Source: Nitrosarchaeum sp.
GTDB taxonomy: Archaea > Thermoproteota > Nitrososphaeria > Nitrososphaerales > Nitrosopumilaceae
Assembly (NCBI GenBank): GCA_021414105.1
Contig: JAIOPB010000044.1
Span: 1-35,909, forward strand
Length of the DNA: 35,909 nt
Reading direction: 5' to 3'
A program made the position numbers and the translations under genes. The notes below the pieces were generated by a model that did no database searches, had not been told where the DNA came from, and saw nothing but the letters and a program-made list of their open reading frames with translations. Shown here one piece after another: positions 11,293-20,512 of this stretch. Within the stretch, counting starts at the first letter, position 1. Every line of letters starts with the position of its first letter.

Positions 11293-12318
11293 TTGACGGC
11301 AATAGCAACCTTAGGATCTCACTGTGCCCTACAAGTTCTCAAAGGTGCCAAAGATGAAGGTCTGAAAACAATCTTAATTTGTGAGAAAAAAAGAGAAAGA
11401 TTGTACCGTAGATTTTCATTTATTGATAAATTAATTTTGGTGGATTCATTTGCAGAAATATTAGAACAAAAACATCAATCTATTTTAGAACAAAATGACG
11501 CAGTGTTGATTCCTCACGGAACTTTAATTGCACAGATGAGTTCTGAGCAAATTGAATCAATCAAGACTCCAATTTTTGGAAACAAGTGGATTCTAAGATG
11601 GGAATCAGATAGAACCATGAAAGAAAAACTTATGCGAGAGGCAAAACTTCCAATTCCAAAACCAGTATTAGATCCAAAAGATATTGATAAACTTGTAATT
11701 GTAAAAAGACAAGGAGCCGCAGGAGGTAAAGGATATTTTTTGGCAGCTAATCAAGATGACTATAATAAAAAAAGGAATCAGTTAATTTCACAAGGAATAA
11801 TCTCCAAAGAAGAAACACTTTACATTCAAGAATATGCTGCAGGTGTTTTGGCATATTTGCAGTTCTTTTATTCTCCTCTAAAAGAAGAATTGGAATTTTT
11901 TGGTGCTGATCAGAGACATGAATCAGACATTGAAGGTATTGCCAGAATTCCATCAGAACAGCAGCTCAAAAGCAACAAGGTTCCATCATTTAACGTGATT
12001 GGAAATAGCCCATTAGTTCTAAGAGAATCATTACTAGATGAGGTGTATGCCATGGGGGATAATTTTGTAGATGCATCAAAAAAGATGGTTGCACCTGGAA
12101 TGAATGGACCGTTTTGTATTGAAGGAGTTTATGATGAGAATGCAAAGTTTACATCATTTGAATTTTCAGCTAGAATTGTAGCAGGTACAAATATCTACAT
12201 GGATGGATCACCATACTATTCATTGCTTTTTAATGAGCCTATGAGTATGGGTAAAAGAATAGCACGTGAAATAAAAACTGCAAAAGAAACAAAGCAACTA
12301 GATAAAGTTACAACTTAA
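11293..12318 (+). CDS. purP: PurP-type formate-dependent AICAR formyltransferase ligase (FAICAR synthetase)
   Basis: A 341-aa ATP-grasp enzyme of the archaeal PurP family, which in known members makes FAICAR from AICAR, formate and ATP in purine synthesis without folate. The opening 'IATLGSHCALQVLKGAKDEG' matches the family's N-terminal nucleotide-binding loop. 'KRQGAAGGKGYF' is the ATP-grasp glycine-rich loop, and 'GPFCIEGVYDENAKFTSFE' followed by 'ARIVAGTNIYMDGSPY' forms the metal/ATP site. The start is TTG at 11293; the frame is closed at 11272-11274 and no ATG/GTG lies between. Some archaea carry PurP paralogues of uncertain activity, so the exact reaction is less certain than the family. 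The 3' end overlaps the convergent gene by 11 bp. Confidence 0.85.
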   Translation: MTAIATLGSHCALQVLKGAKDEGLKTILICEKKRERLYRRFSFIDKLILVDSFAEILEQKHQSILEQNDAVLIPHGTLIAQMSSEQIESIKTPIFGNKWILRWESDRTMKEKLMREAKLPIPKPVLDPKDIDKLVIVKRQGAAGGKGYFLAANQDDYNKKRNQLISQGIISKEETLYIQEYAAGVLAYLQFFYSPLKEELEFFGADQRHESDIEGIARIPSEQQLKSNKVPSFNVIGNSPLVLRESLLDEVYAMGDNFVDASKKMVAPGMNGPFCIEGVYDENAKFTSFEFSARIVAGTNIYMDGSPYYSLLFNEPMSMGKRIAREIKTAKETKQLDKVTT

Positions 12319-12802
12319 AAAAAGATACTTTCACCTTTGCAAAAATCATAATAGCTGAAATCATCACTGCAAATCCAAAAATAGCACCAATTGGAAATTC
12401 TGGAATTACATTAGTTCCAATAATTTCAACTTCCTCAGAATCAACAGGTACAAAGAATTCAAATGTTGAACTATCAGAATCAGATGTCATTTGATAATCT
12501 ACCTCTTCTCCATCAACTAAAATTATAAATTCATTATTTTGTGCATTGATCAATTCATGTTCCAAACCAATAAAAAATTGAGAGTCAAAAGTATTATCCA
12601 AGCCAATAAGCAACGATTTTGATTCAGGATCAATTTCCATTGCAATAATATCGGCATTTACAACATAAGAAATAGAATAAACATGATCATCAATTTCTAA
12701 AACATAATCTGAAGAATTAGAAAGTTCATCAGATGGAGTTTGTCCAAAAATTGGAGCTGTAAAAATCAACAAAGGCAAAATAAGAAAAGCCCAATAATTC
12801 AT
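12308..12802 (-). CDS. Secreted protein with PEF-type C-terminal anchor
   Basis: A 164-aa exported protein. It has a hydrophobic signal peptide (about 1-20), a beta-rich domain of about 110 residues, and a C-terminus 'VIPEFPIGAIFGFAV' running into one hydrophobic helix and a basic tail. This matches the PEFG-CTERM sorting signal common in ammonia-oxidising archaea, with Pro in place of the usual Gly after PEF. It is therefore likely processed by an archaeosortase-like system and displayed on the cell surface. The core domain is not recognised. It converges on purP with an 11-bp overlap. Confidence 0.72.
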   Translation of the reverse strand: MNYWAFLILPLLIFTAPIFGQTPSDELSNSSDYVLEIDDHVYSISYVVNADIIAMEIDPESKSLLIGLDNTFDSQFFIGLEHELINAQNNEFIILVDGEEVDYQMTSDSDSSTFEFFVPVDSEEVEIIGTNVIPEFPIGAIFGFAVMISAIMIFAKVKVSFFKL

Positions 12803-13029: not shown

Positions 13030-15150
13030 TTAGAGTTCTATTAACACTGCCGCTTTTTCAGAACTAACAAGTTCTCCTCTAACAGCATCTACAATATCAG
13101 AGGAAGTAATAAGACTAGAATAATCTATCAGTTTTAGATCATTTAGGAGATATACTTTAGGAGCAATTTCAGAATGTCTTGATTCCAAATACTCATCTAG
13201 TTCTTCCAATATTGTGATTTTACCGCCCTGAAAGATCTTGCCATTTTTTATTGAAAGTTTTGGTTTTCCATATCGGTCTAAAATTAAGATATGGTGTTGG
13301 TTTTTTTTGCTAAATAATTTTTTTACTTCTATATGACCAGTAAATACAAAATAATGGTCAGTCTCATAACTCAGATCAATTAAATCTTCAGAAATTTCAA
13401 TAATCTCACTTGCTCGTTTTCTGGCATCATCTAGTGTAAAGATATTTTTTGAAGTTTCTGCACTATCCAATTCCACATTACCTACAGCAGTTACACGAAG
13501 AAGAGATTTATCAGAAACATATTCACTGTTTATCATAATAGATTCAGGAATTGCACCTTTGTTAACTAGCATTGCATGAATTTTTTTATGAGCCTGATTG
13601 ATTTTTTCAGGTGTTGGTTCTACCATTGTTTGTTCAATTTCTTCTTGAAGCATAGATGATGCCACACCAATTGATGAGATTACTTCAGCATGTTCTGCTT
13701 TTTCATATTTAATTCCTAATTGTTTTGCAACAAATGGAACAAGAACGGAAGCACCGCCACCGCCACCAATTAATGTTGTATGTAAAGGATTCATTTTGAA
13801 CTCTTTTAAGATTTTACTGATGGTTTTTGTTATTTCAAATGAGGCAGTTTGAATAATAGACATGGCAATTTCATGATATGAAACTCCTACAAATTCTGCA
13901 AGAGTTTTAAGAGCAATTTTTGCAGATTCTTGATTTGCAAAAGCATAATCATCTTTTTCTATCATACCTAATGCATTTGCTGCACATGTGTTGGTAATGG
14001 CATATGTTTCCTTATCGCACTTTATTGCAACATATTCTGATTTGTCATTTGACATTGGTTTAATCATGACTATTTTTCCAGTTTTAAGATCCTCAGGATC
14101 TGCAAAGCAAGAATATTTGAGGCCAGCAATGTGAGCACTGCGCGGACCTATATGGGACACTCTATTTTGTTCCAATCCCACCATGCTTCCACCTGCTACT
14201 CCCAGAATTCTAACATCCATTGAACGAATACATGTAGGATGATCTTTTACCGTTACATAACGAATTTCAGGCTTACCATTTTTTATTATACAAATATTGG
14301 TACTAGTACCACCGACTTCAACAAATATGCCATTAGTTACTTTGAGATGCAATAATGCTCCTGCCACACTTGCTGCAGGTCCTGAAAGAATAGTAAGTAT
14401 GGGTTTTGTTCTAAAAGTATCCATGCTGGTAACACCACCATCTCCTTTCATTATCATTAATGGGGCAGTGATTCCTGTTTTACGAATTGCGTCCTCTACG
14501 TAATTTGCAACTTGAAATGTTTTTGGCAAAACACTGGCATTCACAGATGCCGTAAGAGTTCGTATTTCCAATCCATAGATTCCAGAAATCTCATGAGACG
14601 AAGTGGAAGGAATGTTTTGTTTAGATGCAGTATTCATAACAAACAATTCATTGGATGGATCATCCACCCCAAATGCTTCTGTTGCAACAATTACTTCAGC
14701 GCCTTTTTCTTTTAATTGTTGTATTATGTTGGAAACTTCATTTTCCGTAATTAAATGAGATGTGTCTAAAAACTCATGAACTGTTTTGATATCATGATTA
14801 GTGTTAATTGAAGCATCTTGCAGATTTGTTCTTTTAATGACATCTTTTTTTGTTGGTCCCACACCCATTGCAATTATTCCAACCTTGGATGTATCAGATT
14901 CCAATAATGCGTTAATTGCTTGAGTGGTACTATGGGAGATTAATTCTATCTCATTAATTCCAATACCTGTTGCATCAATAATTTTTGTTAATGCAGTTAC
15001 AATACCTTCAGAGACTCCTTTTTCAGCATTGTGAGTCGTAGGAACTGTAGATTTTGCCAAAAGTGAGCCTGTTTTTACATCTATGGCAACAGCTTTTGTA
15101 AAAGTCCCGCCAACATCAATTCCAACTCTAATACGTTGTTTATTGTTCAT
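13030..15150 (-). CDS. Hydantoinase/oxoprolinase A-like ATPase
   Basis: A 706-aa protein of the HyuA/5-oxoprolinase superfamily (actin-like ATPase fold). The N-terminus 'GIDVGGTFTKAVAIDVKTG' is the phosphate-1 loop, 'SHSTTQAINALLE' and 'EVGGTSTNICIIKNGKP' are further nucleotide-binding motifs, and 'LIGGGGGASVLVPFVAKQLG' is the adenosine motif. The C-terminal ~170 residues form an added domain I cannot place. No HyuB partner gene is nearby. The start codon lies inside the iron permease gene (11-bp overlap), so the two are translationally coupled. The substrate is unknown, and the coupling to a metal transporter suggests a role other than hydantoin breakdown. Confidence 0.83.
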   Translation of the reverse strand: MNNKQRIRVGIDVGGTFTKAVAIDVKTGSLLAKSTVPTTHNAEKGVSEGIVTALTKIIDATGIGINEIELISHSTTQAINALLESDTSKVGIIAMGVGPTKKDVIKRTNLQDASINTNHDIKTVHEFLDTSHLITENEVSNIIQQLKEKGAEVIVATEAFGVDDPSNELFVMNTASKQNIPSTSSHEISGIYGLEIRTLTASVNASVLPKTFQVANYVEDAIRKTGITAPLMIMKGDGGVTSMDTFRTKPILTILSGPAASVAGALLHLKVTNGIFVEVGGTSTNICIIKNGKPEIRYVTVKDHPTCIRSMDVRILGVAGGSMVGLEQNRVSHIGPRSAHIAGLKYSCFADPEDLKTGKIVMIKPMSNDKSEYVAIKCDKETYAITNTCAANALGMIEKDDYAFANQESAKIALKTLAEFVGVSYHEIAMSIIQTASFEITKTISKILKEFKMNPLHTTLIGGGGGASVLVPFVAKQLGIKYEKAEHAEVISSIGVASSMLQEEIEQTMVEPTPEKINQAHKKIHAMLVNKGAIPESIMINSEYVSDKSLLRVTAVGNVELDSAETSKNIFTLDDARKRASEIIEISEDLIDLSYETDHYFVFTGHIEVKKLFSKKNQHHILILDRYGKPKLSIKNGKIFQGGKITILEELDEYLESRHSEIAPKVYLLNDLKLIDYSSLITSSDIVDAVRGELVSSEKAAVLIEL

Positions 15151-17353
15151 CTGAAATATTCCTAGATTTTCTCATAGCTACGAGTTTTTGTTCTTTGCGC
15201 GGTTTAGCGATTAAAATATACGAAGTAGCAAACAAGTAGACTCCTAATAACATCAACTGTCCAATTAATGTTTCAAGGGTGGGATAAATTCCAGTCATTG
15301 CTGCCATATTGATATCCAATCTCGGAATAACCCCAAGCATGCTAGTATATGGAATTATATCGAGAATTTGCAATTCCCTTATGGCATTTCCTAAAAATGC
15401 AATTGAAAGATATGCCCCTATTCCCATTGTCAACCCAAATAATATTCGTAGTGGCAATCGCCTACCGAGTTTTCTCATTATAAAAAACAATCCCAAAAGA
15501 GATACAATCCCAATTACAAATCCAAGTGCTACAAATAATTCCATATATTTTGCAAATCCAAACATTGCCTGATAGAACAAGACAGTTTCAAATCCTTCAC
15601 GATAAACAGTAAAAAATGAGAGCATTACAAAAACCATAAATCCACCAGTGGCACCTGCTTGCCAAACTTTTGCTTTAACAAACTCCATCCATTTTTTGTG
15701 TTCAATTTTATTTAAAATCCAGAAACTTACATAAAACAATACAGCAGTTGCAGATAATGCAGCCACTGCCTCCACAAGTTCTCTGTTAGCACCAGATATA
15801 TCCACAATGTATGATGCAAGAAACCAAGTAACTATAGTTGCAGCAATTGCAACGATAACTCCATAGTAAACATATGGTTTGAATTTTGTGTTTCTAGATG
15901 CCTCAAGATATGTTAAAACAGCGCCAAGTATCAAAACAGACTCTAAACCTTCTCTAAAAATTACAGCAAATGATGATGTAAACGCAATAGCAGGGGCGAT
16001 CTCACCAGTTCCAGTTACAATTCTTTCAGATTCATCCAGATTTCTTCTAATGCCAATTACAACATCTTGAATCTCTTCTTGAGGTGCTTCTTGTTTAATC
16101 AAATTACGTAATGTCGCAAACTGATATTCAACCTCAAGGGTAAAATCAGGATCAATTGCTCTTAGAGGGATTTCCACAAACTCATAGCTGTCAAGATATG
16201 CAGATCTTGCACTAGCATGTGCAGATTGTGTGTCCCCACGACTATAATGGAGTAATGTTTCCTCTAATTGTTCACGAATTATATCGATTTTATTTTTTAC
16301 ACCAGATTTTTGATCTTCTGAGGTATCACCCATGGATTTAAGATCTTTTTCAGATGACAAACTTGTATCAACTACAGAAGTGAGTTTACTAGTCATTGCT
16401 TCTGCTTTTGCTAAATCAGGCAAAATAGAATTTTCAATAAATGTGATAATAACAGTTGGATTCTCTTTTTGGACAATCATGTCTCTGAGTTTTTCACGCA
16501 TGTTAATTTCTAATGAATTTAGTAATGTTTCATCAACTTTTTCAATATCAGATTCCAGATACTCAAAATTTTCAAGATATGCTTCAATTGCAATCTCTTC
16601 TGCAGTTACATAATCACCAGAGTTTACTGCAGTAAATAATTCAGAATATAAATCTCTAATTACACCATAGAGACTTGCCTTATCAATTGTAATTGTTTCT
16701 GTTTGCACCAAATCACGCTGTATTGCAGTGATCAAATTTCCTACAACAACAAAATCGCTTTTATTTGAAACTAATTTATCCAACTCATGAAAAAATGAAT
16801 CTAGTTCTTGATTCAGACGGTTATTAGATGATGGATTTTGTTCTAAAATAAGCTTTGAGTGTTCTATTAGTGATAAAGTTAGAAAGTATGATTCACGAAT
16901 ATCATTTTGTATTGCTATCTGATATTGCTCATCAGCTTCGGACAAAATAGAAGCAATGACAGTATTTGAATTTCCACCTGAAGGAATCAGAGTCAATGTT
17001 TCTTGGAGTTGTTCAATTTGATTGATCAAATCTTGCGATTCTGATTTTGATAAAATGGCTGAATGAAGATCAAGTAATTTAATATGAATTTCGTCTGAAA
17101 AATCAGAGTTAAATGCTCTTAAAAATTGAATATTTTTCCCGTAAAAGTTATTTGTTAAAGTAGCATATTTTTCTGCAGAATCATAGTCATTGGTCAGAAG
17201 TGCCTGTTTTGTTAATTCCAATCCAATTCCAGTAATTGTGATAGTAGTTGTGTAATTTTCTTCTTCATTTTGAGCATATCCAACATTAGTAAATGAAAAA
17301 ACACTCAAGATCAAAACAATAATAATTGAATACCAATAAAATTTAGATTTCAT
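15140..17353 (-). CDS. FTR1-family iron permease with large extracellular domain
   Basis: A 737-aa membrane protein. The signal peptide ends near residue 27 ('VGYA-QNE'). A long helical ectodomain (28-450) is followed by about seven membrane helices with the two iron-permease motifs REGLE (467-471) and REGFE (585-589), each of the REXXE type that carries Fe3+ in yeast Ftr1 and bacterial EfeU. The ectodomain contains at least two copies of a module (about 234-320 and 365-445) built on 'GD-x-x-x-A-x-x-x-A-x-x-AYLxxxE' and a following 'LR' helix. The same module recurs in the PEFG protein encoded just upstream. The module resembles EfeO/imelysin-like periplasmic iron-binding helices in general layout. 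It overlaps the downstream hydantoinase-like gene by 11 bp. Confidence 0.88.
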   Translation of the reverse strand: MKSKFYWYSIIIVLILSVFSFTNVGYAQNEEENYTTTITITGIGLELTKQALLTNDYDSAEKYATLTNNFYGKNIQFLRAFNSDFSDEIHIKLLDLHSAILSKSESQDLINQIEQLQETLTLIPSGGNSNTVIASILSEADEQYQIAIQNDIRESYFLTLSLIEHSKLILEQNPSSNNRLNQELDSFFHELDKLVSNKSDFVVVGNLITAIQRDLVQTETITIDKASLYGVIRDLYSELFTAVNSGDYVTAEEIAIEAYLENFEYLESDIEKVDETLLNSLEINMREKLRDMIVQKENPTVIITFIENSILPDLAKAEAMTSKLTSVVDTSLSSEKDLKSMGDTSEDQKSGVKNKIDIIREQLEETLLHYSRGDTQSAHASARSAYLDSYEFVEIPLRAIDPDFTLEVEYQFATLRNLIKQEAPQEEIQDVVIGIRRNLDESERIVTGTGEIAPAIAFTSSFAVIFREGLESVLILGAVLTYLEASRNTKFKPYVYYGVIVAIAATIVTWFLASYIVDISGANRELVEAVAALSATAVLFYVSFWILNKIEHKKWMEFVKAKVWQAGATGGFMVFVMLSFFTVYREGFETVLFYQAMFGFAKYMELFVALGFVIGIVSLLGLFFIMRKLGRRLPLRILFGLTMGIGAYLSIAFLGNAIRELQILDIIPYTSMLGVIPRLDINMAAMTGIYPTLETLIGQLMLLGVYLFATSYILIAKPRKEQKLVAMRKSRNISDEQ

Positions 17354-17363
17354 GAATTGTTGA

Positions 17364-17388
17364 TTAGGTCTAGCTAACGATATTTAAA
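17364..17388 (-). promoter_or_regulatory. FTR1 promoter: TATA box with DtxR-like operator candidate
   Basis: Read on the minus strand, TTTAAATAT (17388-17380) is a TATA box 27-35 bp upstream of the permease ATG at 17353. Directly after it lies a 14-bp element, TTAGGTCTAGCTAA on the plus strand (17364-17377), with TTAG/CTAA ends. From memory it matches much of the DtxR/IdeR iron-box consensus. Its place between TATA box and expected transcript start suits an iron-dependent repressor. Confidence 0.45.
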
Positions 17389-17461: not shown

Positions 17462-18583
17462 TTAGATTCTTGGCAATATTGTCAAGTTCTTGCTTTTTGA
17501 TAATAGAACCATCGTGCTAATTATTCCAACAACGAGAATCATTACAGCGATAGTGCCAAATTCAGGAACAATTTTTGCTACAGTGTCCATTTTTACAAGT
17601 ATGTCATCTACTTGTTGATTCACTTCTGATACTGGTGCATCATTACTTATCATACCTCGAAGCTCTTCTCGCATCATTGTTTCAAGTTCATCTACCAATT
17701 CTGGATTTGACTCTTTGATTGGTCCTTCTAGAAATTCAAAATTATCCAGATATGCTTTTGTTGCAAGACTCAATGCTGTATCTTTGTCACCTTCAGTATA
17801 GGTTACTTTGACTTGATTCAAGAGATTACGAATGTTTTCAACATATGTCAACAGATCTGTCTCTTCAGTCTTCTCACCGATTGCCATACCAAGCTCATTG
17901 ATTATTCCATTAGCAAATATTGCAACTTGCTCAGGATCTGATCTTTTGTCATATGCATCCCACAAATCAGAATAAAATTCCTCGATTTCTTGTACTTCAT
18001 GTTCTGGTAAATCAGATTTTATTTCATTAAAGACTTGCTGTGATCTCCATACAAATGCAGAACCATCTTGGAATTCGGCCATCATTTCTATCTGTCCATT
18101 TTTTACTCCTTCTTCGTATTCCCCGATTGAAGTCTTTAGTGAGCCTTGCATGAGTTTAACCTTGAATGTGGTATCTTGACTAAGTTCTTCACCTACAATC
18201 AAAATTCTTGCTTCCTGGATTATCGCCTTTGCTTCATCTATTGCTATTTGTGCATCTTCTCTTGTTACATCAGAGCCAGTTTTTTTGCCCAAATCCATGA
18301 GTGTTGCTTGTATTTTTGCATCAAATTCTGGATTTGCTTCTTTTAGATCTGGTTTCATAGATGCATAAAGTTCTGCAATTGGATGAGTCGCATGAACTAG
18401 TGCCAATTCAGCATTGTTATCATCAAGGTTCTGTTCAATTGCCCAAAAGTGTCCCAATGTCTCTTCAAGAGATCCTGCAAATGATAGTTTATCATCATAA
18501 GTAGATTCTGCAAGAGCAAATTGAGATGTCAGTACTGTAACTAGTGTTATTGCCACAACTATAGAAGTTGTCGATTTAATCAT
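17462..18583 (-). CDS. PEFG-anchored surface protein sharing the FTR1 ectodomain module
   Basis: A 373-aa exported protein: signal peptide to about residue 25 ('QFALA-ES'), a helical extracellular region, and a textbook PEFG sorting signal at 340-343 ('VPEFGTIAV') followed by one hydrophobic helix and a basic tail. Residues about 250-337 align by eye with the module in the neighbouring FTR1 ectodomain. Shared features are the 'GD-x-x-x-A' turn, then 'AYLDNFEFLE', 'MMREELRGMI' and an amphipathic helix. A weaker copy lies near 39-100. It ends 108 bp upstream of the permease start and has its own TATA-like sequence. The likely role is surface capture of iron or another metal for the permease, inferred from module sharing and order. 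Confidence 0.78.
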   Translation of the reverse strand: MIKSTTSIVVAITLVTVLTSQFALAESTYDDKLSFAGSLEETLGHFWAIEQNLDDNNAELALVHATHPIAELYASMKPDLKEANPEFDAKIQATLMDLGKKTGSDVTREDAQIAIDEAKAIIQEARILIVGEELSQDTTFKVKLMQGSLKTSIGEYEEGVKNGQIEMMAEFQDGSAFVWRSQQVFNEIKSDLPEHEVQEIEEFYSDLWDAYDKRSDPEQVAIFANGIINELGMAIGEKTEETDLLTYVENIRNLLNQVKVTYTEGDKDTALSLATKAYLDNFEFLEGPIKESNPELVDELETMMREELRGMISNDAPVSEVNQQVDDILVKMDTVAKIVPEFGTIAVMILVVGIISTMVLLSKSKNLTILPRI

Positions 18584-18794: not shown

Positions 18795-19151
18795 TTAACT
18801 TTGAAGATTTGATTTAGGGTTGCTAGTATTAGGATAAAGATTCAAGATGGGCTCTAAATCAGTTAATGTAATTTCAACTTTACCTATACGACTGCGATAT
18901 TGTTTTATTTTTTTTCCTTCAGCAGAAATTACAAATTTATCTACTTCTGCAAGCGCCAACTCTTCTAAATTAGATAAAGTTTTGTATACAGTAGATATTG
19001 AAATTTTTAATTCATCTGCAATTTGTGTTGCATCTTTTGATTCATTTTTAATTGAAAATAATACAGCACGAGTACATACATTACTTAGAGATTCAATTAT
19101 TTTTTGCGTAACATCAAATTCGCTTAGTTGAATAATATTTGGGTTTGACAT
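18795..19151 (-). CDS. Winged helix-turn-helix regulator (second of a tandem pair)
   Basis: A 118-aa small DNA-binding protein. Residues about 12-75 form an ArsR/TrmB-like winged helix: 'QKIIESLSNVCTRAVLFSI', recognition region 'ATQIADELKISISTVYKTLSNLEEL', then a short wing around 'EGKKIKQYRSRI'. There is no visible metal-binding motif (a single Cys, C22). It starts 8 bp after the stop of its paralogue at 19160-19489, so both are co-transcribed and probably arose by tandem duplication. Flanked by FTR1 and cbtBA genes, the pair are candidate regulators of these metal systems. Confidence 0.8.
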   Translation of the reverse strand: MSNPNIIQLSEFDVTQKIIESLSNVCTRAVLFSIKNESKDATQIADELKISISTVYKTLSNLEELALAEVDKFVISAEGKKIKQYRSRIGKVEITLTDLEPILNLYPNTSNPKSNLQS

Positions 19152-19159
19152 TCAGATCA

Positions 19160-19489
19160 CTAGTTTGGCACCAAATTAAGAACAGGATCAGGTTTTCTGA
19201 TGGAAATATCCGCCTTGCTTATGCGACTTTTGTACATTTTGAATTTTCTTCCTTTATCAGAAATTAACCATTTTTCTACTTCAATTAGAGTAAGTTCTTC
19301 AAGGTCACTTAGTTTTTTATACACAGAACTGAGCGGAATTTTTAGTTTTTCAGATAATTCAGATGCAGTCATTCCCTTTTTTATAATTGAAAATAGGATT
19401 GCACGTGACTCAGAATCAGCCAATGCTTCAATTACTTTTTGAGTAACATCGTATTTTTTTAATTGTGGTAATGTCAAACGTCGTGTCAA
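19160..19489 (-). CDS. Winged helix-turn-helix regulator (first of a tandem pair)
   Basis: A 109-aa DNA-binding protein alike over its whole length to the next gene: 'YDVTQKVIEALADSESRAILF', then 'ASELSEKLKIPLSSVYKKLSDLEEL', then 'KGRKFKMYKSRISKADI'. The start is TTG at 19489; a TATA-like TTTAAAT lies about 27 bp upstream on the minus strand. No cysteine or histidine cluster for metal sensing is present, so effector binding, if any, is not obvious. The two proteins could form heterodimers. Confidence 0.8.
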   Translation of the reverse strand: MTRRLTLPQLKKYDVTQKVIEALADSESRAILFSIIKKGMTASELSEKLKIPLSSVYKKLSDLEELTLIEVEKWLISDKGRKFKMYKSRISKADISIRKPDPVLNLVPN

Positions 19490-19558: not shown

Positions 19559-20284
19559 CTAATTAAAAGGAATTATTTCTTTATGAGGTTTATAGTGATG
19601 CCACAAAGAGCCTAAAATAATACCCAATGAAAGCCAATACAGAGAGACGGTAAATGCAGACATTATTCTAAAATTATTAACTAAATCCATAGGAGCAGCA
19701 ATTTGGTCAGGATTTTCAGGCATGGCAACAAATGCTATTCCAATAAATGCAGCATATCCTACAAGGGCAACAAGTTTTTTCGTTTTTAGTTTTTGAGACA
19801 GTTTGTAAAATCCAACAGCACCAAATCCAGAAATTGCAATAAATATCAAATAAAGAATTCCACGCAAAACTATAGTTTCAGGATCACCTACAGTTGGAGG
19901 ATTTGCAGGGTATTTCAAAAATGGAATAAAGTAAATTGCTAACCACATTATTCCTGCCAAAACTAGAGCTTTTTTGATATCTGTTTTTCCAGGAAGAGAG
20001 TTTCTTGAAAGTGCGAAAATAATTCCAAATAATGCACCAACTGAAATACCAAGAATTCCACCTGCAAGAACTTGTCCGCTCTTTTGCCATGTTCTATACC
20101 CATCATATTTTATCCAAAATTCAGGAGTATCTTTTTCTTCACCCGATGCAAACAGATGTTGATTTTCAATTCCAATTGCCTGATCAAGAGAAGGTTCAAC
20201 AAAGATGAGATTCATACTGCCGTGAATGAGTCCAGCTGCAGCACCAGAAGATATAACAATAAGAATAAAAAGAAATGTTTTCAT
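19559..20284 (-). CDS. cbtA: Cobalt transporter subunit CbtA
   Basis: A 241-aa membrane protein of the CbtA family with about six hydrophobic segments. The first helix carries 'GAAAGLIHG', and a soluble loop after it includes 'DGYRTWQKSGQVLAGGILG', both family features. Later segments contain 'FLKYPANPPTVGDPETI', which is very typical. CbtA is linked with cobalt uptake for cobalamin synthesis from gene context in other prokaryotes. Ammonia-oxidising archaea make B12, so the role fits. It follows cbtB by 12 bp. Confidence 0.87.
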   Translation of the reverse strand: MKTFLFILIVISSGAAAGLIHGSMNLIFVEPSLDQAIGIENQHLFASGEEKDTPEFWIKYDGYRTWQKSGQVLAGGILGISVGALFGIIFALSRNSLPGKTDIKKALVLAGIMWLAIYFIPFLKYPANPPTVGDPETIVLRGILYLIFIAISGFGAVGFYKLSQKLKTKKLVALVGYAAFIGIAFVAMPENPDQIAAPMDLVNNFRIMSAFTVSLYWLSLGIILGSLWHHYKPHKEIIPFN

Positions 20285-20296
20285 CAGGTTTAACCC

Positions 20297-20512
20297 CTAG
20301 TGGCAAGGAAAGCCAGCAGCGTGTCTCATATCATGAGTAAGTTCATGGATGTAAAGGTCTTGAAATGCTTCTTCACCATAAACCAGACTAAAGATATGTC
20401 CCTGATCAAATCCAACAACAAATAATCCTGCTACAAAAACGATAGCTAATGCCACAATTGCAGTTACCGGAACACCATTCTTAGATACATTGATTTGTCT
20501 TGATTGAGACAT
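20297..20512 (-). CDS. cbtB: Cobalt transporter subunit CbtB
   Basis: A 71-aa protein with one membrane helix (about 16-37) and a His-rich tail 'ELTHDMRHAAGFPCH', the hallmark of CbtB. Two His and the Cys-His end could bind Co2+. It is the first gene of the cbtBA operon. The promoter carries a TATA box and an adjoining palindrome (20534-20561), so expression is likely controlled by a metal- or B12-responsive factor. Confidence 0.88.
   Translation of the reverse strand: MSQSRQINVSKNGVPVTAIVALAIVFVAGLFVVGFDQGHIFSLVYGEEAFQDLYIHELTHDMRHAAGFPCH

Follow-up and report, generated by a model that had tools for sequence, protein, structure and literature searches.

An FTR1 permease gene overlaps a HyuA-like ATPase gene

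In the 35,909-nucleotide stretch of Nitrosarchaeum sp. DNA analyzed here (contig JAIOPB010000044.1, hereafter the window), a gene for an FTR1 iron permease is followed by a gene for a HyuA-like actin-fold (ASKHA) ATPase. The two open reading frames (ORFs), with starts assigned mechanically, share positions 15140–15150; this 11-bp overlap had been noticed in an original prediction made from the letters of the window.

15140..17353, minus strand: FTR1 iron permease gene, 737 amino acids (ORF, Pfam and NCBIfam profiles)
13030..15150, minus strand: HyuA-like actin-fold (ASKHA) ATPase gene of the FTR1-linked subfamily, 706 amino acids (ORF, Pfam)
15140..15150, minus strand: 11 bp common to both ORFs, where FTR1 ends and HyuA begins
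15160..15163, minus strand: AGGA, Shine-Dalgarno-like, within the last FTR1 codons and ahead of the HyuA ATG (sequence)
17379..17388, minus strand: TTTAAATATC, TATA-box-like, 26–35 nt ahead of the FTR1 ATG (sequence)
15941..15955, minus strand: FTR1 iron motif 1, REGLE, residues 467–471 (sequence and alignment)
15587..15601, minus strand: FTR1 iron motif 2, REGFE, residues 585–589 (sequence and alignment)
15161..15175, minus strand: FTR1 tail motif MRKSR, residues 727–731, expected on the cytosolic side (alignment)

Many relatives have GGA at the position equivalent to the AGGA of the window, and the TATA-like TTTAAATATC would make the FTR1-HyuA mRNA near-leaderless. A genome search found a single copy of each gene; the second, weaker FTR1 match is the neighboring 373-amino-acid exported protein, which resembles the extracytoplasmic region of FTR1.

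The permease is classed as FTR1 by its defining features. A signal peptide is followed by an extracytoplasmic helical region with AYLxxxExxE motifs and then by the membrane domain (about residues 457–719), and both REGxE motifs are invariant in 21 aligned FTR1 proteins. The protein passes the curated Pfam cut-off for PF03239 (E 1.7e-13, 51 bits, cut-off 25.3), while its match to TIGR00145 (E 1.2e-30, 107 bits) lies under the cut-off of that profile (303.8). The tail PR[KR]...MRKSR is conserved at the end of FTR1 from HyuA-bearing ammonia-oxidizing archaea and absent from seven FTR1 proteins of HyuA-less genomes. Very long exported proteins (1114–1168 amino acids), in which the AYLxxxExxE-bearing region is repeated or fused, were seen at three loci (L063, L064 and L067), in L067 fused to FTR1 itself.

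The HyuA-like protein matches Hydant_A_N (E 1.4e-22, 80.7 bits) and Hydantoinase_A (E 4.8e-54, 184 bits), both over the Pfam cut-off. It is presumably cytosolic, because it has neither a signal peptide nor a clear membrane helix.

Conservation of the gene pair

A census of 200 family genomes found HyuA in 56, which belong to 12 of 22 genera; the set of genomes with full FTR1 is practically identical. In 40 of 41 family loci the two genes are direct neighbors on the same strand, and the overlap is therefore not due to chance; close adjacency is relaxed by short gaps at three loci and lost through a rearrangement at L072. Overlap lengths vary between 4 and about 23 nt, and the register differs among loci; with ORF picking, an overlap was present in 37 of the 39 automatically paired neighbors, at protein divergence of up to about 50%. 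At these loci, the other gene pairs that are conserved and codirectional seldom overlap. The single constant exception (8/8) is a gatA-gatB-like pair, which we take to encode subunits of one complex, an assignment that fits the gene sizes and the context after AspS.

At the level of the class (400 genomes, strong matches), 107 genomes have both genes, three have only HyuA, three only FTR1, and 287 neither. All six single-gene genomes are incomplete assemblies (65–93% complete), and in one FTR1-only genome the contig stops at the final codons of FTR1. In family f3, FTR1 lies 3–17 kb from HyuA in ten genomes, each with a probability of about 0.4–1.3% by chance if the genes were placed independently; the ten genomes are related and do not represent ten independent events. 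This spacing fits an ancestral neighborhood that has since loosened. In some loci of f3 (L105–L109, L118) HyuA adjoins an Asp/Glu/hydantoin-racemase-like gene, in several of them together with a DtxR-type regulator, and in genus g28 of this family it precedes a Sua5/YrdC gene. Families f1 and f3 are called ammonia oxidizers here from named loci (L119–L121; Thaumarchaeota, Nitrosopelagicus) and from their taxonomic placement in the phylum, rather than from amo genes.

An assembly artifact or an oddity of a single genome was rejected as the origin of the pairing, which recurs across family genomes and loci. The original prediction had regarded the overlap as a sign of joint function and had named a pairing confined to this genome, with an overlap unkept elsewhere, as the contrary outcome. 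That outcome was not observed: the gene-neighbor analysis it had proposed places the pair in more than half of the family genera, in a deep-branching archaeal family (f15) and in a bacterium (Deinococcus), with the overlap mostly kept. Adjacency, overlap and this recurrence argue for the claim, and joint working of FTR1 and HyuA is well supported by the genomics.

FTR1-linked HyuA proteins form a separate subfamily

Three features of the ATPase are relevant to its classification.

15094..15096, minus strand: HyuA Lys19 (GGTFTK), found in all FTR1-linked members in place of the canonical Asp (alignment)
14296..14298, minus strand: HyuA Asn285 (EVGGTSTN), likewise found in all FTR1-linked members in place of the canonical Asp (alignment)
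13030..13653, minus strand: HyuA C-terminal domain, residues about 500–706, common to bacterial relatives (profile and structure searches)

The residues K19, G190, E195, V218, L267 and N285, along with others, are common to all 65 sequences of the FTR1-linked side, those of Deinococcus and f15 included. K19 and N285 occupy positions at which N-methylhydantoinase has Asp, so that the canonical motif aspartates (GGTFTD, GGTSxD) are replaced in all 65. In the tree, all sampled relatives not linked to FTR1 form one clade (Shimodaira-Hasegawa-like approximate likelihood ratio test, SH-aLRT, 100) that excludes the FTR1-linked and f3 sequences; the tree was built by a quick method, and Deinococcus and f15 are on long branches. 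By these sequence criteria the FTR1-linked HyuA proteins are a subfamily of their own.

The C-terminal domain matched no Pfam family. Hydant_A_C was not matched in HyuA of the window, f15 or Deinococcus, whereas a canonical HyuA control matches PF19278 there. A model of the domain built from 43 sequences is confident (predicted local distance difference test, pLDDT, 93) and has no convincing counterpart in PDB (best E 0.05, template modeling score 0.26). Assignment of the domain to Hydant_A_C or to a known fold was rejected on these grounds, and the domain stays unplaced, as first described. The full-length model (pLDDT 76) has HyuA-type A subunits as its best matches and is too weak for site geometry; the nearest solved relatives are the A subunits of N-methylhydantoinase, caprolactamase and acetone/acetophenone carboxylase.

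The reported lack of a HyuB partner, originally a statement about the window, extends to the whole 92%-complete genome: PF02538 found no HyuB there, while six of 14 control genomes score, and a HyuB hidden elsewhere in the genome was rejected. The ATPase is HyuA-like but is not filed as a hydantoinase, because three features of HyuA fail: Hydant_A_C, the HyuB partner and the motif aspartates. An Fe-S electron activator of the BcrAD/HgdC/RACo type was ruled out, Cys307 and Cys348 being lost in f15 and Deinococcus; Cys389 is the sole invariant one of the cysteines examined on the FTR1-linked side, and no multi-cysteine site is invariant there.

A three-part cassette in archaea and Deinococcus

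Upstream of FTR1 in the window lies a further gene of interest.

17462..18583, minus strand: exported helical 373-amino-acid protein with HAxHPxxE and AYLxxxExxE motifs and a PEFG-CTERM anchor (profile and homology)

In 25 of 40 family loci a homolog of this protein is encoded no more than four genes away from the FTR1-HyuA pair, and outside the ammonia oxidizers such homologs accompany the pair in two cassettes. A plasmid of Deinococcus taeanensis encodes, in order, a 333-amino-acid exported protein, FTR1, HyuA (4-nt overlap) and a 145-amino-acid protein; it is the one bacterial FTR1-HyuA case among the best 80 matches of a scan of species genomes. In f15, represented by one genome (L117), a 391-amino-acid exported helical protein, a 409-amino-acid FTR1, HyuA and a 142-amino-acid protein are accompanied by a DtxR-type repressor of the iron/manganese type; here the FTR1-HyuA junction varies with the chosen start from a 25-nt overlap to a 2-nt gap. 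The 333- and 391-amino-acid proteins are full-length homologs of the 373-amino-acid protein (E 9e-36 and 3e-36, respectively), and all three have the HAxHPxxE and ExxE motifs. Since the first genes of the Deinococcus and f15 operons are homologous to it, the unit is a three-part cassette of exported protein, FTR1 and HyuA. A profile search of the third component against PDB chains gave no match.

The small proteins encoded after HyuA in Deinococcus (L203:7069-7506) and f15 (L117:10518-10946) each have one N-terminal hydrophobic helix and no detectable sequence similarity to each other; they are possibly a fourth part.

Neighboring genes

Next to the cassette in the window lie four further genes.

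18795..19151, minus strand: winged-helix regulator 1, conserved, between the cbtA and FTR1 genes (Pfam and neighborhoods)
19160..19489, minus strand: winged-helix regulator 2 of the conserved block (Pfam and neighborhoods)
19559..20284, minus strand: CbtA, putative cobalt transporter subunit (Pfam and neighborhoods)
20297..20512, minus strand: CbtB, putative cobalt transporter subunit (Pfam and neighborhoods)

The first winged-helix protein is a probable regulator. CbtA and CbtB adjoin in many loci and are outside the minimal cassette. Genes for EfeO/EfeB, Fet3 or P19 partners were not found by a Pfam scan of the genes next to FTR1, the rest of the genome not having been searched for them. A second small PEFG-CTERM protein (window 12308-12802) is encoded downstream of HyuA in many relatives and has no homolog in the f15 or Deinococcus cassettes.

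A sister clade linked to another permease

The scan of species genomes found full-length HyuA relatives, C-terminal domain included, in many phyla. In 50 of 68 loci of this sister clade, the gene just upstream of HyuA encodes a CitMHS-like permease, with a Pfam match under the CitMHS cut-off and the annotation 'citrate transporter' in haloarchaeal copies. The clade comprises bacteria and haloarchaea (L124–L198, for example L126, L163 and L191; L201, L202). HyuA follows a permease gene here as well, and the order permease-HyuA is therefore a recurrent layout. The CitMHS-HyuA operon type is apparently undescribed; its operons often contain a gene for a protein of about 220 amino acids of no known kind, beside FAD oxidoreductase, NanE and ROK genes. 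Among E. coli genomes, the Buttiauxella operon had no close match.

Possible role of the ATPase in iron uptake

The co-occurrence, adjacency and overlap of FTR1 and HyuA, their three-gene cassette and the separate HyuA subfamily are genomic observations. They make it likely that HyuA is a functional partner of FTR1, and the pair probably forms one undescribed iron-uptake system, a variant of FTR1 with a dedicated cytosolic actin-fold ATPase. Iron transport by FTR1 and ATP binding by HyuA are expected from their families, and we infer iron as the substrate, a physical complex and coupling to ATP.

In the proposed mechanism, the exported helical protein would capture ferric iron outside the cell, and FTR1 would pass it through the membrane via the two REGxE motifs. 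HyuA, made in step with FTR1 probably by translational coupling, would work at the inner face of the permease, where its binding and hydrolysis of ATP may gate or drive the release of iron to the cytosol, as ArsA does for ArsB; it would thereby stand in for the oxidase (Fet3) or peroxidase (EfeB) with which FTR1 works elsewhere. This direct action at FTR1 is favored tentatively. Its extension to a general class, in which actin-fold HyuA energizes or gates secondary permeases, FTR1 in archaea and Deinococcus and CitMHS-like permeases in bacteria and haloarchaea, by means unrelated to ABC, P-type and ArsAB transporters, is rather unlikely.

Several observations weigh against direct action. The HyuA fold core is strongly kept in the FTR1-linked proteins too (59 near-invariant positions), and the characterized relatives of HyuA are, to our knowledge, all enzymes acting on small organic molecules. 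Genes beside the CitMHS-linked HyuA appear to be metabolic (FAD oxidoreductase, NanE, ROK). The two genes are not adjacent in f3, and the co-occurrence statistic (Fisher's p 1e-89) ignores phylogeny and is descriptive only. The MRKSR tail is not present in FTR1 of f15 and Deinococcus, and is therefore at most a lineage-specific contact.

Ligand chemistry ranks close behind: HyuA may be an ATP-dependent enzyme, a kinase or an amide- or carboxylate-activating enzyme working without HyuB, that produces or modifies a small ligand in the cytosol, to which the imported iron is passed or from which it is released, its link to FTR1 being metabolic and not mechanical. The identity of the nearest solved relatives, the metabolic genes in sister-clade operons and the racemase-like neighbor of some f3 HyuA genes are consistent with such an enzyme, whereas the genome lacks HyuB, Lys19 and Asn285 replace the canonical aspartates in every FTR1-linked member, and the pair has no conserved biosynthetic gene alongside. 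Of the siderophore and glutathione-like ligands considered originally, the present evidence points to neither in particular.

It is improbable that HyuA regulates, assembles or maintains FTR1, using ATP as a gatekeeper or chaperone without powering transport or touching a ligand. Actin-fold proteins do include chaperones and reactivating ATPases, and elsewhere in the phylum HyuA-like proteins are encoded alongside a CobW GTPase and corrinoid methyltransferases, a setting that hints at reactivation or at work on metallocofactors; but nothing specific links HyuA to maturation at FTR1 loci, and the corrinoid-linked proteins are distant, with a profile match over the N-terminal half only.

Slightly less probable still is a metal other than iron, such as cobalt or copper, which would be compatible with any mechanism. 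It is suggested by the genes for CbtB, CbtA and two winged-helix proteins that adjoin the cassette both in the window and in many relatives; however, the REGxE motifs of FTR1 are intact, and the Deinococcus and f15 cassettes are without CbtAB, f15 having the DtxR-type repressor instead.

That the genes are mere passengers, held together without shared function by operon compactness and block inheritance, would suit the compact genomes of ammonia oxidizers and the apparent gain or loss of the pair as one block within the family, but is very improbable, given that the overlap is kept in several registers at about 50% protein divergence while neighbors shuffle, that the pair recurs in Deinococcus and f15, and that co-occurrence in f3 is near-perfect without adjacency.

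Comparison with known systems

Described partners of FTR1-type permeases are the Fet3 oxidase, EfeO/EfeM with EfeB, P19/FetP with a thioredoxin and ABC-type cluster, and FtrABCD (PMC9174327, PMC6083913). Some marine ammonia oxidizers have FTR1 without Fet3 (PMC9723733), and Nitrosopumilus maritimus SCM1 has no FTR1 (PMC6776035). No description of FTR1 with a HyuA/ASKHA partner was found in the open-access literature searched, which does not imply its absence elsewhere. The window system shares with FTR1/EfeU/FetM (PF03239, TIGR00145) the permease domain with two REGxE motifs, the extracytoplasmic N-terminal region and an exported partner protein, and differs in its probable HyuA partner, the known ones being Fet3, EfeO/EfeM/EfeB, the P19/FetP cluster and FtrABCD.

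With HyuA-type subunits (N-methylhydantoinase, 5-oxoprolinase, caprolactamase, acetone and acetophenone carboxylase), which are its best PDB matches, the window HyuA has in common the actin-fold N-terminal and Hydantoinase_A domains; it differs by the lack of HyuB, a C-terminal domain that is not Hydant_A_C, Lys19/Asn285 and a gene coupled to a permease gene. The CitMHS-linked clade, annotated only as hydantoinase/oxoprolinase family protein, has the same full-length architecture, C-terminal domain and gene position directly after a permease, but a CitMHS-like permease, metabolic neighbors and mostly different residues at positions 19, 218, 267 and 285.

In ArsA-ArsB a soluble ATPase assists a secondary carrier. 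If the proposal holds, the FTR1-HyuA pair would follow the same logic of soluble ATPase and carrier; the parallel serves as a lead only, since ArsA is a P-loop and not an actin-fold ATPase, ArsB exports instead of importing, and neither is homologous to FTR1-HyuA.

Iron is a possible limiting nutrient for ammonia-oxidizing archaea of the surface ocean (PMC6776035). Little is known of how they import it, and our analysis names a constant partner of FTR1, a third component, the lineages that carry them and residues that can be tested. Were the ATPase to power or gate the permease, ATP would be coupled to metal uptake in a new way, and the principle of an ATPase-assisted permease would reach many bacteria through the CitMHS-linked sister clade.

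Other HyuA-like proteins of the phylum

Elsewhere in the phylum, genes for HyuA-like proteins adjoin that of a CobW-type GTPase, as seen by scanning in L214 and by eye in L216. The L214 gene also adjoins B12-binding and URO-D genes, a context suggesting that its product helps to activate corrinoid methyltransferases. The neighbor of the HyuA-like gene in L215 looks DUF917-like by eye.

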